Assembly: GCF_014836765.1 (NCBI RefSeq)
Contig: NZ_JACSQG010000002.1
Coordinates: 434,001 to 498,000 of the forward strand
Direction of reading: 5' to 3'
DNA length: 64,000 bases
Origin: Serpens gallinarum
GTDB taxonomy: Bacteria > Pseudomonadota > Gammaproteobacteria > Pseudomonadales > Pseudomonadaceae
Part shown: positions 33,225 through 38,830 of the stretch, one piece after another
Position numbering within the stretch: the first letter of the stretch is position 1
Layout: each line of letters opens with the position of its first letter
The notes under the pieces: model-generated
Seen by the model: only the letters and a program-made list of their open reading frames with translations
Database searches by the model: none
Told to the model about the DNA's origin: nothing
Made by a program: the position numbers and the translations under genes

Positions 33225-33355
33225 TTGCCTAGTTAAACCCGGTTTGACAGTAAGGGGCATCTGGAGATAAATACAGCAAACTTCTTATCGTGCGCTTGGC
33301 TTTCAAATGTCGAAATATTGCATTATTTTAATGTCGCAATTGACGGGCTCATTTC

Positions 33356-34210
33356 ATGAGATTATATCTTCTGCTTTTATTCTTTGTGATTGGGGGTTGC
33401 TCGAGCAAGGTGCTTTTTAAAAGTTATGGTTCCGATATTTCGCCCAGAGTGAAATGCATACTTTCCTCTTCTAAGTATTCCGATGAAAGAATCTCATTGG
33501 CTGAGCATCATCATCTGGCTGTAACAGAAAGGATTGAGGAGTGTCAGATCTCACTGGGGCGCAGATATGAGAACGGCTTTGGGGTTGAGGCAGATTACGA
33601 ATTGGCAAGGTTCTATTATAGTCTAAGTCCTTCTGGATTCAGATATCTGGCGTCAATGGCAGAGAATGGAATTGGCCAGACTGTTGATTATCTGGAAGCA
33701 GAGAGGTTATACAGAGAAAGCGTGAGCGCTGGAGTGCCTTGTTCCCCTGTAAATTTAGCCATGTTTCTGGAAAGAAGGAAATCTTCTAATGTTTCCGAAA
33801 TTTCCTCGCTCTATTTGGATGCTTTGTACAGTTGTCGGGGTGCATGGACAGCTCTCTGGCGGTTATACGAAAGCGGAGTTCCATTATCCGATGTGCAAAT
33901 CCTTCGGTATCAGGGTTTTTGGCTAGAAAAATGGCAGGCTTCTGTTGGTGTCAGGCTTCGCAGAAGTAAATATATTCAAGAGGAAGTTGGAAAGCTCTCT
34001 GATGCAACGGTGTTGAAGCTTGGCTTTAGCTTCAAGCGAGGGCGGCAAGTTCCAGAGATATCAATCGTTCAAAGTAGCGGGTATGAATATATTGATAATG
34101 TCTTGCTTGGTTTTTTTGAAAGAAGCACTTACGAGGGGATTATACTTAAAGACTCTGATGATGCCTTCAGCTTTACTTTACCTCTTTTGATCTCTTCGAG
34201 TCAGCGTTAA
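33356..34210 (+). CDS. AT-rich predicted lipoprotein with Sel1-like and TonB-C-like regions
   Basis: A 284-aa protein of unknown function. The N-terminus MRLYLLLLFFVIGGCSSK is a lipoprotein signal with the lipobox VIGGC (Cys15). Residues about 60-150 hold Sel1-like helical repeats (LGRRYENGFGVEADYELARFYY; MAENGIGQTVDYLEAERLYRES). Residues about 195-280 resemble a TonB C-terminal fold: VLKLGFSFKRGRQVPEISIVQSSG, then YIDNVLLGFF. Base composition (by eye roughly 42% GC, with AT-ending codons such as TTA, ATA and AGA) contrasts with both neighbours and suggests recent transfer. No transposase or tRNA lies beside it. Confidence 0.75.
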   Translation: MRLYLLLLFFVIGGCSSKVLFKSYGSDISPRVKCILSSSKYSDERISLAEHHHLAVTERIEECQISLGRRYENGFGVEADYELARFYYSLSPSGFRYLASMAENGIGQTVDYLEAERLYRESVSAGVPCSPVNLAMFLERRKSSNVSEISSLYLDALYSCRGAWTALWRLYESGVPLSDVQILRYQGFWLEKWQASVGVRLRRSKYIQEEVGKLSDATVLKLGFSFKRGRQVPEISIVQSSGYEYIDNVLLGFFERSTYEGIILKDSDDAFSFTLPLLISSSQR

Positions 34211-36292: not shown

Positions 36293-36703
36293 TTATGCCG
36301 ACAGCAGTTGCCGGGCCAAGGGAAGCACCTGTTCGCGGGTAAGCTCGGCGAGGGTTAGGCGTTCGGCTTCGGCGAAGCTGACCCATCGCGCTTCGGCGAT
36401 TTCGGCATTGGCCTGTAGTGGCTGGTCGAGCTGCAAAGCGAAGAGTTCGGCAACTACCTGGCAACCCGGTTCATTGGCGGCCGCGGCACTGAAGTTACCT
36501 AGGTAAACGGCCTGCTGGTCCATCAGGTCGATACCCAGCTCTTCATTCAGTTCTCGGCGCAAGGCGTCGATGGGCCGTTCGTCAGCTTCCAGCTTGCCAC
36601 CGGCCTGCATGAAATACGGCGTATCGGCCTTACGCACCAGCAACATCTCGCGTTGGGTGTTGTAGATGAGGGCTGCGGCAATGTGAATGTAGGGTGAGGT
36701 CAC
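36293..36703 (-). CDS. Nudix hydrolase
   Basis: A 136-aa Nudix pyrophosphohydrolase with an intact box: the stretch GGKLEADE..REL.EELGI matches G-x5-E-x7-R-E-U-x-E-E-x-G-U. The start is GTG 36703, preceded by AAGGA at seven bases; a much longer open frame upstream is the shadow of the radical-SAM gene. It diverges from the LexA-boxed radical-SAM gene, and the box lies about 50 bases upstream of this start, so it could share SOS control. Substrate (for instance an oxidised nucleotide) is unknown. Confidence 0.88.
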   Translation of the reverse strand: MTSPYIHIAAALIYNTQREMLLVRKADTPYFMQAGGKLEADERPIDALRRELNEELGIDLMDQQAVYLGNFSAAAANEPGCQVVAELFALQLDQPLQANAEIAEARWVSFAEAERLTLAELTREQVLPLARQLLSA

Positions 36704-36752
36704 GCAAGTTTCCTTGTGGTGGGGGCTGGCAAGGTGAGCGTAGCTCCGTATA

Positions 36753-36768
36753 CTGGGTTTATATACAG
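36753..36768. promoter_or_regulatory. LexA (SOS) box
   Basis: CTGGGTTTATATACAG fits CTG-N10-CAG. Its right half TATATACAG is identical to the gammaproteobacterial consensus, and the left half keeps CTG but has GGT where TAT is usual. It ends 20 bases before the GTG of the radical-SAM gene, where it would overlap the promoter, and lies 49 bases from the Nudix start on the other strand. Confidence 0.8.
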
Positions 36769-36788
36769 TATTCGCGGAGAGCGCCACC

Positions 36789-38003
36789 GTGCAACTCATC
36801 GACAAGCTGAGCATTCTCGCCGATGCGGCCAAGTACGACGTGTCGTGCGCCAGCAGCGGCGCACCGCAGCGCAGCTCCAAGGGCAAGGCGGGGGTGGGCT
36901 CTACTGGCGGAATGGGCATCTGCCACAGCTTTACGCCGGACGGTCGCTGCGTGTCGCTGCTGAAGATCCTGCTCACCAATTTTTGCCTGTACGACTGCCA
37001 ATACTGCGTAAACCGCCGCTCCAGCGACGTACCCCGTGCGCGCTTCACGCCCGAGGAAGTGGTGATGCTGACTTTGGACCTGTACCGGCGCAACTGCATC
37101 AGTGGACTGTTCCTGAGCTCCGGCATCATTCGCTCCGCGGATTACACCATGGAGCAATTGGTGCAGGTGGCACGCCTGCTACGCGAAGAGCACGAATTTC
37201 GCGGCTACATCCACCTCAAGACCATTCCGGATGCTGATCCGGCGCTGATCGAGCAGGCCGGTCGCTATGCCGACCGCTTGAGCGTGAATATCGAACTGCC
37301 CAGCGACGCCAGCCTGATTCGCCTGGCGCCGGAAAAGACCGTTGGCGGGATTCAGCGGACCATGGGTGCCATCCGCTACCAGCAGCAGGCCGTCGAAGGC
37401 GAGGCCAGGGCACCGAAGTTCGCCCCTGCCGGGCAGAGCACGCAGATGATTGTCGGCGTTGACGACAGCGACGATCACAGCATCTTGCGCAAGTCGCAGA
37501 CCCTGTACCGGCAGTTCCGCCTCAAGCGCGTGTATTACTCGGCGTTCAGTCCCATCCCCCACAGCCCGTCCACGGTGCCGTTGGCGGCGCCGCCGCTGCT
37601 GCGTGAGCACCGTTTGTATCAGGCGGATTTCCTCATGCGCGGCTATGGCTTTCGTGCCGAGGAACTGCTCGACAAGCCCGGTAACCTGGCGCTGGATATC
37701 GACCCAAAACTCGCCTGGGCGCTGGAGCACCGCGAGCAATTTCCGGTGGATGTAAACCGCGCAGAACCCGCGCTGATTGCACGGGTGCCGGGCATCGGCG
37801 TGCTGACCGCGCAACGCATCGAGCAACTGCGCAAGCAGCGAAAAATTCGTTATGACGACTTACGCCGGCTGCGCTGTGCCCTGGACAAGGCCAATCCGTT
37901 CATCGTCACCGCTGACTACCGCCCCCGGCAGGACAGCAGTGAATCCCTGCGACTGCGTCAGCAGCAGGCCGAGCGACCGGTCCAGCAAATGGCGCTCTGG
38001 TGA
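36789..38003 (+). CDS. Putative DNA modification/repair radical SAM protein
   Basis: A 404-aa radical-SAM protein of the family annotated as putative DNA modification/repair (TIGR03916-like). The [4Fe-4S] motif is CLYDCQYC (CX3CX2C, near residue 76). Extra Cys residues lie upstream (DVSCASSG, GICHSF, DGRCVSLL). The C-terminal part has a helix-hairpin-helix DNA-binding element (ARVPGIGVLTAQRIEQL). A LexA box directly in front supports a damage-induced role. The GTG at 36789 is the likely start. It runs into its partner gene through a TGATG overlap. The chemistry and lesion are unknown. Confidence 0.87.
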   Translation: MQLIDKLSILADAAKYDVSCASSGAPQRSSKGKAGVGSTGGMGICHSFTPDGRCVSLLKILLTNFCLYDCQYCVNRRSSDVPRARFTPEEVVMLTLDLYRRNCISGLFLSSGIIRSADYTMEQLVQVARLLREEHEFRGYIHLKTIPDADPALIEQAGRYADRLSVNIELPSDASLIRLAPEKTVGGIQRTMGAIRYQQQAVEGEARAPKFAPAGQSTQMIVGVDDSDDHSILRKSQTLYRQFRLKRVYYSAFSPIPHSPSTVPLAAPPLLREHRLYQADFLMRGYGFRAEELLDKPGNLALDIDPKLAWALEHREQFPVDVNRAEPALIARVPGIGVLTAQRIEQLRKQRKIRYDDLRRLRCALDKANPFIVTADYRPRQDSSESLRLRQQQAERPVQQMALW

Positions 38004-38830
38004 TGCGCTGCGTACGGATTGACGGCGGGTTCGCCGACTGGCGCGACAAGGCCCGCACGTTGCTGCACGACGGCGTGCCGCCGGATTACGTGAGCTGGCG
38101 CGATGAGCTGATGCCGGCCGATCTGTTCGCGGAAGAGACCTTGGCGCGTTATGCACCCGGCGCGCGGGTCACGGTGCCGCGTAAGGTACTCGACATGCTC
38201 GAGCGGGCTGCACGCTTTCGGATGCCGGAGCGTTGGGCGTTGCTCTATCGGATTCTCTGGCGGGTGGCCCAGGGTGACGCAGCGGCTGCGTTGCCAGGCG
38301 ATCTCGACGGCAGTGAGCTGCATCAGCGACTCAAAGCGGTGGGCCGGGAAATCCATCAGTTGCATGCGTTCGTGCGTTTCGCTCCGTTGAAGGGCGAGGG
38401 TCTGCCGGACTACGTGGCCTGGTATGAGCCCGAACATGAGGTGCTGGAGGTGGCCTGCGAGCATTTCGCCGAGCGGCTGGGGCAGCACAGTTGGCTGATA
38501 GCGACGCCGCGCGATGGGGTGTTGTTCAACGGCGACCGCTTCGATTACCGCCGCGAGGCACCCGAGGAATGGCAGCGACTGGCGCGCACCCCCGATCCGG
38601 AAGGCGAGCGTTTGTGGATGGCCTACTACCGCAGCACCTTCAACCCGGCGCGGGTCAATCCACAGGCGCTGCGCCAGCATTTGCCGCAGCGCCTGTGGCA
38701 GCAATTGCCGGAAGGCCGGCTGATTCCGGGCCTGTTGGTGCGGGCGCGTACCGGTGCGCAACGTGACGGTCAGGCCGAGGACGTGAAGGCTTGGGCCGGC
38801 AAGCGCATCCCCATACGCGACTCGAGGTAA
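38003..38830 (+). CDS. Partner protein of the radical-SAM DNA-repair pair (TIGR03915-like)
   Basis: A 275-aa protein that recurs next to the radical-SAM gene and is annotated as a putative DNA metabolism/repair protein; in some bacteria it is fused to a uracil-DNA-glycosylase-like domain, which is absent here. I see [13 protein letters not shown] and [13 protein letters not shown] in the centre and [16 protein letters not shown] near the C-terminus. No nuclease or ligase motif is recognised. The ATG at 38003 overlaps the upstream TGA by one base; a GTG at 38000 is also in frame. Confidence 0.83.

Follow-up and report, generated by a model that had tools for sequence, protein, structure and literature searches.

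We know of few radical S-adenosylmethionine (radical-SAM) enzymes that act on DNA. The closest described system is a two-gene COG1573-COG4277 operon, which PMC8565304 places, together with its uracil-DNA glycosylase (UDG), in a predicted Bacteroidetes SOS network and reads as uracil-directed base excision; it also cites earlier reports of an SOS link of this operon for Verrucomicrobia and Alphaproteobacteria. The same paper states that several species have SplB (COG1533) under SOS regulation, with Cirz 2006 among the citations. Here, we describe a related gene pair in a stretch of 64,000 nucleotides (hereafter the window) from Serpens gallinarum, contig NZ_JACSQG010000002.1, positions 434,001 to 498,000 of the forward strand. 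A LexA-type box stands in front of a radical-SAM gene of the family TIGR03916, which is followed by a partner gene of the family TIGR03915 (Pfam DUF4130). This two-gene operon is very likely under SOS (LexA) control, as judged from the boxes in front of its orthologues. We take COG4277 to be the TIGR03916 family, and the COG1573-COG4277 operon is probably the TIGR03916/TIGR03915 pair: the two families are the same and an SOS-type box lies upstream, but the partner in the window is short and devoid of a UdgX domain, and its box is of the gammaproteobacterial CTG-N10-CAG type.

The evidence for SOS control comes from two samples of orthologues. In 57 related genomes of the same family, 15 had a match to the radical-SAM protein; after removal of a 95-residue fragment (G009), 14 remained, including the own genome, and in 13 of these the motif CTG-N10-CAG lies directly 5' of the radical-SAM start. 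The second sample, the best 80 of at least 588 confirmed stretches, was grouped by organism name into 33 gamma- and betaproteobacterial loci outside Xanthomonadales, 40 alphaproteobacterial loci, five from Xanthomonadales and two from Verrucomicrobia. The CTG-N10-CAG box is present within 110 bp upstream in 31 of the 33 gamma/beta loci, and the LexA box of Alphaproteobacteria, GTTC-N7-GTTC or its complement, in 37 of the 40 alphaproteobacterial loci. In the reciprocal controls, the gamma/beta box was found at one of 47 loci of the other groups and the alpha box at none of 40. Controls placed 400 bp farther upstream gave 1/33 and 0/38, controls within the gene one and none, and shuffled sequences a mean of 0.82 (maximum 3) for the gamma/beta box and of 0.12 (maximum 2) for the alpha box. 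Of the 30 best-scoring loci of a phylum-wide sample, 28 have either motif within 300 bp. That one and the same gene follows LexA boxes of unrelated types in different groups speaks strongly for SOS control; PMC3323433 argued likewise for splB. The initial annotation had named conservation of the box upstream of orthologues as a check on its LexA assignment, and the box passed it, with the alphaproteobacterial groups carrying a box of their own. The features of the locus are as follows.

36753-36768, plus strand: LexA-type box CTGGGTTTATATACAG, 16 bp, ending 20 bases 5' of the GTG start at 36789
36750-36771, plus strand: outer palindrome ATACTG-N10-CAGTAT, enclosing the LexA-type box
36726-36754, plus strand: sigma-70-type promoter-like site CTGGCA-17-TATACT, a 9/12 match to the consensus, which is no proof of a promoter
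36789-38003, plus strand: radical-SAM gene, TIGR03916 (rSAM_link_UDG), 404 amino acids, GTG start, TGA stop at 38001-38003
36984-37007, plus strand: CX3CX2C motif for [4Fe-4S]/SAM (CLYDCQYC; C66, C70, C73), invariant in 66/66 orthologues
37743-37841, plus strand: helix-hairpin-helix of the radical-SAM protein, residues 319-351, Pfam HHH_3, 26.1 bits
38003-38830, plus strand: partner gene, TIGR03915 (SAM_7_link_chp)/Pfam DUF4130, 275 amino acids, short form without UdgX, ATG at 38003-38005
36293-36703, minus strand: NUDIX hydrolase gene (PF00293, 58.5 bits), the divergent neighbour sharing the intergenic region with the radical-SAM gene

At the locus itself, the -10 element of the promoter-like site (36749-36754) overlaps the left arm of the box, which is the arrangement expected for LexA repression. 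This promoter-like site is the only one in 36690-36800, with a mean of 0.0 in 50 shuffles. The box CTGGGTTTATATACAG fits CTGN2TN7CAG, which PMC9578287 lists as the SOS box of P. aeruginosa, next to GTTC-N7-GTTC for Caulobacter. With a scoring matrix built from 36 distinct orthologue boxes, the window's own box excluded, a scan of both strands of the 64 kb ranked the box first with 23.5 bits in the minus-strand reading, the next independent site reaching 17.1; the minus-strand score was adopted because LexA boxes are palindromic. The second-best site, CTGGAGATAAATACAG at 33261-33276 (17.1 bits on the minus strand, 15.3 on the plus strand), lies 79 bases 5' of an open reading frame at 33356-34210 whose start resembles that of a lipoprotein. 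The NUDIX gene is counted as a neighbour rather than as a part of the system.

The own genome (G000) was scanned with the box pattern at up to three mismatches, which gave 13 forward and 13 reverse matches at 17 distinct sites, against 6 and 8 matches for the reversed control. Seven of the 16 other sites precede, as read by eye, recN, imuA-imuB, lexA, recA, dinG, an integron integrase and a PA0069-type radical-SAM gene; an eighth (L021) is near yebC- and ruvA-like frames, and the remaining sites have no SOS-type genes. Two boxes lie at lexA (the gene again read by eye), and one of them, CTGGGATTATATACAG, is identical to the window box in 15 of 16 bases. The site in front of the integron-integrase-like frame (L025, G000:C1:1107768-1107783) has three mismatches and lies directly 5' of it.

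The second boxed radical-SAM gene of this genome bears on a point of the initial annotation, namely that a radical-SAM gene belongs to the published P. aeruginosa LexA regulon and might be the orthologue. We take that gene to be PA0069, and its family, NF033668, presumably corresponds to COG1533. In S. gallinarum an NF033668 gene lies at G000:C2:84712, with its own box CTGTATAAAAAAACAG at G000:C2:84661-84676 (L020, L039). The family scores above cut-off in 26 of the 57 relatives, and a box is present at 24 of these 26 loci, the misses being L033 and L051. Since the radical-SAM protein of the window has no NF033668 match at E 0.01 or better and a separate, boxed NF033668 gene exists elsewhere in the genome, the P. 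aeruginosa gene is most likely not the orthologue of that in the window, and orthology was rejected by family. Two distinct radical-SAM families, TIGR03916 and NF033668, thus stand behind LexA-type boxes in this genome. The window protein and the SplB/PA0069 family are both radical-SAM proteins with SOS boxes and probably alike as DNA-directed radical enzymes, but they belong to separate families.

Family membership, the cluster motif, the constant pairing and the conserved SOS-type boxes can be read directly from the sequence. The radical-SAM protein scores 545 bits against TIGR03916 (curated cut-off 343.5) over residues 4-395 of 404, and the partner 182.1 bits against TIGR03915 (cut-off 112.25) and 118 bits against PF13566, that is DUF4130 (cut-off 27). 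Six cysteines (C20, C45, C54, C66, C70 and C73) are invariant in all 66 aligned radical-SAM orthologues, whose mean column identity is 65%; C20, C45 and C54 likely form a second metal site. Lipoyl synthase, too, has three cysteines ahead of its SAM motif. The helix-hairpin-helix motif is found in 64 of the 66 orthologues; in the window protein this region has a weak RuvA match (E 0.023). The structural model of the radical-SAM protein has a mean predicted local distance difference test score (pLDDT) of 85.4, with values below 50 for residues 20-42, and its best matches in the PDB are radical-SAM barrels, headed by lipoyl synthase (4u0o, Z 18.0) and HydE (Z 17.8). Both share the barrel at Z of about 18, but identity in the structural alignments is only about 11-17% and the helix-hairpin-helix is extra in the window protein. 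SplB is absent among the 50 structural matches listed, which excludes nothing. The initial annotation had described the box 20 bases before the radical-SAM gene, the partner start inside the radical-SAM stop codon, CLYDCQYC with additional upstream cysteines, a C-terminal helix-hairpin-helix, and families known only as putative DNA modification/repair; coordinates, alignments and family scores agree with all of this, and the NCBIfam name indeed says modification/repair.

The two genes are tightly linked. The TGA of the radical-SAM gene and the ATG of the partner overlap in TGATG, and both genes are present in the identical 14 of 57 relatives. In 299 genomes of the phylum, the radical-SAM protein is above cut-off in 53 and the partner in 56, and all 53 radical-SAM genomes have both; Caulobacter vibrioides, a control genome, gave matches to both families. 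In 76 of the 80 named loci the partner lies downstream of the radical-SAM gene, separated from it by at most about 500 bases; in the remaining four the contig ends 17-294 bases past the radical-SAM gene. In G278 and G290, both from the phylum-wide set, the two genes lie about 3 kb apart. With a mean column identity of 37% over 75 rows, the partner is less constant than the radical-SAM protein. By these counts DUF4130 is a near-obligatory companion, and it is highly likely that the two proteins form a complex.

To what fold does the partner belong? Its model has a mean pLDDT of 85.1. Foldseek gave no confident match (best E 0.02), with ThiM, DrdV and UvrC chains also among the matches. VIA-align, which re-examines the candidates from Foldseek, gave PAP phosphatase (8a8k) as the best match (Z 8.7, root-mean-square deviation (rmsd) 4.5, 180 residues aligned), RecJ (5f55) with Z 7.7, rmsd 4.2 and 179 aligned residues, and Cdc45-bearing entries with Z of about 5-7. 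We take all but one of the 50 matches listed to be DHH/DHHA1-type proteins, the exception being 3n2q (Z 4.3). The likeness to the RecJ/Cdc45/DHH-DHHA1 phosphoesterases lies in the predicted fold, but DUF4130 differs from them in having neither the conserved DHH motif and Asp set nor profile similarity. In 75 partner rows, neither the DHH motif nor the Asp metal ligands are conserved; the string DHH occurs in 7/75, and D, H or E reach at least 80% only at D100, H118, E142, H145, D176, D199 and E237, with P at 199 in the window. DHHA1 was absent from a Pfam scan of 75 DUF4130 members, and profile comparison revealed no kinship with RecJ or AlaRS DHHA1, the profiles being shallow (16 and 13 sequences, respectively). 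Judged from this model, DUF4130 is probably a degenerate DHH (RecJ/Cdc45-like) fold, by resemblance rather than by membership.

A further part occurs in relatives only. Among 76 partners, 52 are long and carry a UdgX domain, and 24 are short, one of them cut by a contig end. GEQPG is present in 52/52 long partners, and so is a His-ended loop of the K-x-R-x-H type, mostly KRRLH or KRRIH (50 by one pattern, 2 by another). On TIGR03914 (UdgX family uracil-DNA binding protein; cut-off 190), four fused partners of full length reach 264-344 bits, and the closest solved relatives of the sole fused partner tested (L157) are UdgX-type structures, e.g. 6ajo and 6ail. The fused UDG-like domains attributed to relatives of the partner were thus borne out and narrowed to UdgX. 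GEQPG and the loop His of UdgX from M. smegmatis (6ajo/6ail) are kept in the C-terminal domain of these relatives, but the domain is missing from the window partner, which matches DUF4130/TIGR03915 only. TIGR03914 has no match in the own genome at E 0.001, and a search with one UdgX query detected no UdgX-coding DNA at any of the 23 intact short loci, nor in six short-form relatives, the own locus among them. On a quick tree of 94 radical-SAM rows (58 fused, 29 short, 7 unlabelled), the fused/short label changes at least eight times, at least six of them forced by starred branches; gain and loss of UdgX are indistinguishable on this tree. The intact short loci, the label changes and the negative result in the own genome rule out UDG/UdgX as an essential part. 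As UdgX is optional among the relatives, the core reaction cannot need it, and by this comparison the radical-SAM protein and DUF4130 are the core. According to PMC10359453, H109 of the UdgX KRRIH loop bonds covalently to C1' of the abasic sugar, the physiological role of UdgX is largely unknown, and UdgX activity is present in Bradyrhizobium diazoefficiens. Three Bradyrhizobium loci of our set (L143, L157, L158) are fused forms.

In Xanthomonadaceae the radical-SAM gene follows another palindrome, GTCTCA-N5-TGAGAC, which is common to recA, uvrA, dnaB, rmuC and two DNA-helicase families. The family is that of G145; its name was deduced from loci of Xanthomonas and Pseudoxanthomonas that carry this motif. 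The palindrome occurs in 55 of 79 sampled genomes of the family, and the reversed control in none. At the 78 sites read, of more that exist (L207-L244 and L277-L316, e.g. L211, L226, L208, L313, L238, L296), the genes starting within 420 bases 3' are those of a DECH-box helicase (23), the radical-SAM protein (11), mraZ (8), dnaB (5), an Lhr-type helicase (5), recA (3), uvrA (2), rmuC (2), cas3 (2), cas9 (1), csy1 (1) and others (15). The palindrome looks like the mark of a DNA-damage/CRISPR regulon, and its sharing among the radical-SAM gene, recA, uvrA and dnaB hints at a lesion context. LexA is not supported as its regulator: lexA is present in 77/79 genomes versus 55/79 for the palindrome, and none of 30 lexA loci read has it. 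In Verrucomicrobia, one of the two loci (L144, a metagenome-assembled genome of Verrucomicrobiaceae) has GTTC-N4-GAAC 14 bases 5' of the radical-SAM start, a sequence that we take to be the Verrucomicrobia LexA motif.

How much of this is new? The families, their pairing, the UDG link and the SOS regulation are already in databases or in print. The initial annotation had proposed an uncharacterised SOS system: SOS control is strongly supported by the conserved boxes, but the SOS link of the family was already in print, as PMC8565304 shows. In the literature covered (titles, abstracts and passages; most subscription papers were outside its scope) we found no tested reaction for the TIGR03916 protein, and as far as seen the pair is biochemically uncharacterised. 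New are the identity of the UDG-like domain as UdgX with its crosslinking His, its optional nature, the DHH-like model of DUF4130 and the short-form member. A role in anti-phage defence was rejected (no PADLOC match for three proteins), as was a phage origin. One phage record, 'Acinetobacter phage MD-2021a' (L246, CAKLQH020000003.1), has glyS, glyQ and an acyl-CoA dehydrogenase gene around the pair and is probably mislabelled bacterial DNA; eight gut 'Bacteriophage sp.' records were also hit, the one examined being without annotation; IMG/VR contributed one locus; and PHROGs gave a weak radical-SAM match for the first protein and none for the partner. Of 72,556 plasmid records, 158 encode a relative of the radical-SAM protein; 142 of these are classed as non-mobilizable, and Phaeobacter, Paracoccus and Azospirillum are in the lead.

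Taken together, we regard it as fairly likely that the locus is a LexA-repressed two-gene operon encoding a radical-SAM repair enzyme that has two subunits and is directed to DNA. As long as the cell is undamaged, LexA would cover the -10 of the promoter, and after RecA-triggered cleavage of LexA the overlapping genes would be made together. The TIGR03916 protein would bind SAM and a [4Fe-4S] cluster inside a barrel of the usual kind, with a probable second metal site at C20/C45/C54, and would grip DNA via its C-terminal helix-hairpin-helix. DUF4130 probably adds a nucleic-acid-binding surface, a RecJ/Cdc45-like fold without the metal ligands, that would present the lesion, and the 5'-deoxyadenosyl radical would then act in situ, reversing or altering the damaged nucleotide. 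In most of the relatives read UdgX is fused to the partner; it may be a detachable add-on that traps uracil/AP (abasic) sites and that this organism does without. We infer LexA binding and induction, the complex, the DNA substrate, direct reversal and the lesion from the sequence and its comparison. That DNA is the substrate of the pair is likely. Different groups have built their own versions of the switch in front of the pair, so that it very probably acts on damaged DNA; in view of the SOS-type regulation we place direct reversal ahead of modification, although we give repair only a slight preference. It is tempting to speculate about a new class of DNA-acting radical-SAM enzymes with a second Fe-S cluster on the upstream cysteines, a chemistry other than that of SplB, a nuclease-dead subunit derived from RecJ/Cdc45 and UdgX as an exchangeable lesion catcher, but we consider a scheme of this extent improbable.

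Several observations weigh against the proposal. The box is asymmetric, scoring 12.3 bits in gene direction, below the 15.3 of the site at 33261, and only 7 of the 16 other loose-pattern sites of the genome precede genes read as SOS-type. Among same-family orthologues, the most divergent one (L014, 54% identity) has no box; L162 of the gamma/beta group and L138, L167 and L186 of Alphaproteobacteria are without the box of their group (in L154, the other gamma/beta miss, the box overlaps the start as taken), and neither of the two boxes tested is present in the five Xanthomonadales or the two Verrucomicrobia loci (L144, L165). The partner occurs without the radical-SAM protein in three genomes (G249, G266, G336), and 246 of the 299 phylum genomes have no radical-SAM protein above cut-off. 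The 26.1 bits of HHH_3 are slightly below the Pfam cut-off of 27. The DHH-like fold, finally, comes from one predicted model, with Z 8.7 at an rmsd of 4.5 and a Foldseek best E of 0.02, and the comparison of DUF4130 with the shallow RecJ and AlaRS profiles gave a probability of about 0.1%.

Of the other explanations, the one that survives best, though still unlikely, is base modification, e.g. of thymine or uracil in DNA during stress, which partners bearing UdgX could read or remove. It would fit the NCBIfam name, lipoyl synthase as the best structural match and the three cysteines upstream of the cluster motif, which resemble those of sulphur-inserting radical-SAM enzymes; in these (lipoyl synthase, MiaB) three upstream cysteines carry a second iron-sulphur cluster. 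The SOS-type boxes, and the Xanthomonadaceae box common to uvrA and recA, point instead to damage, and PADLOC had no match. Rather less probable is a uracil/AP-site pathway in which the pair would serve the crosslink between UdgX and DNA by resolving either this crosslink or the abasic site, as a uracil-repair branch for DNA synthesis during the SOS response. The fusion of UdgX in 52/76 partners, the covalent bond of H109 to C1' (PMC10359453) and the base-excision interpretation in PMC8565304 speak for it, but 23/76 intact short partners, and this genome as far as the search at E 0.001 reaches, keep the radical-SAM protein and DUF4130 where UdgX is missing. A mutagenesis or replication-restart factor that acts on a protein or nucleotide at stalled forks, merely placed there by its DNA-binding parts, is more doubtful still. 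Such a factor would agree with the RecJ/Cdc45-like model of the partner, with the prediction of DUF4130 as a mutagenesis-related enzyme in PMC3765255 and with the Xanthomonadaceae palindrome common to dnaB and recA; the six invariant cysteines and the strong conservation of the radical-SAM core point instead to a catalytic function, and no polymerase gene was noticed by eye among the neighbouring frames of the window. A chance box, with the operon outside LexA control in this organism, can be dismissed as very remote: the loose pattern CTGT-N8-ACAG at up to one mismatch is common in the window (24 matches versus 20.3 expected), the left half of the box departs from the consensus with GG in place of TA and the one-strand score is weak, but the site ranks first over both strands of the 64 kb, overlaps the sole promoter-like site in its surroundings, is a single base away from a box at lexA in this genome and is conserved in orthologues.

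The operon for a DNA-directed repair enzyme thus proposed stands, in each of several groups, behind a LexA box unrelated to that of the others, and so gives the impression of a constant, though biochemically uncharacterised, component of the damage response. Since nature can dispense with UdgX, only two proteins are left in question, and the short form of S. gallinarum is the simplest version to reconstitute.

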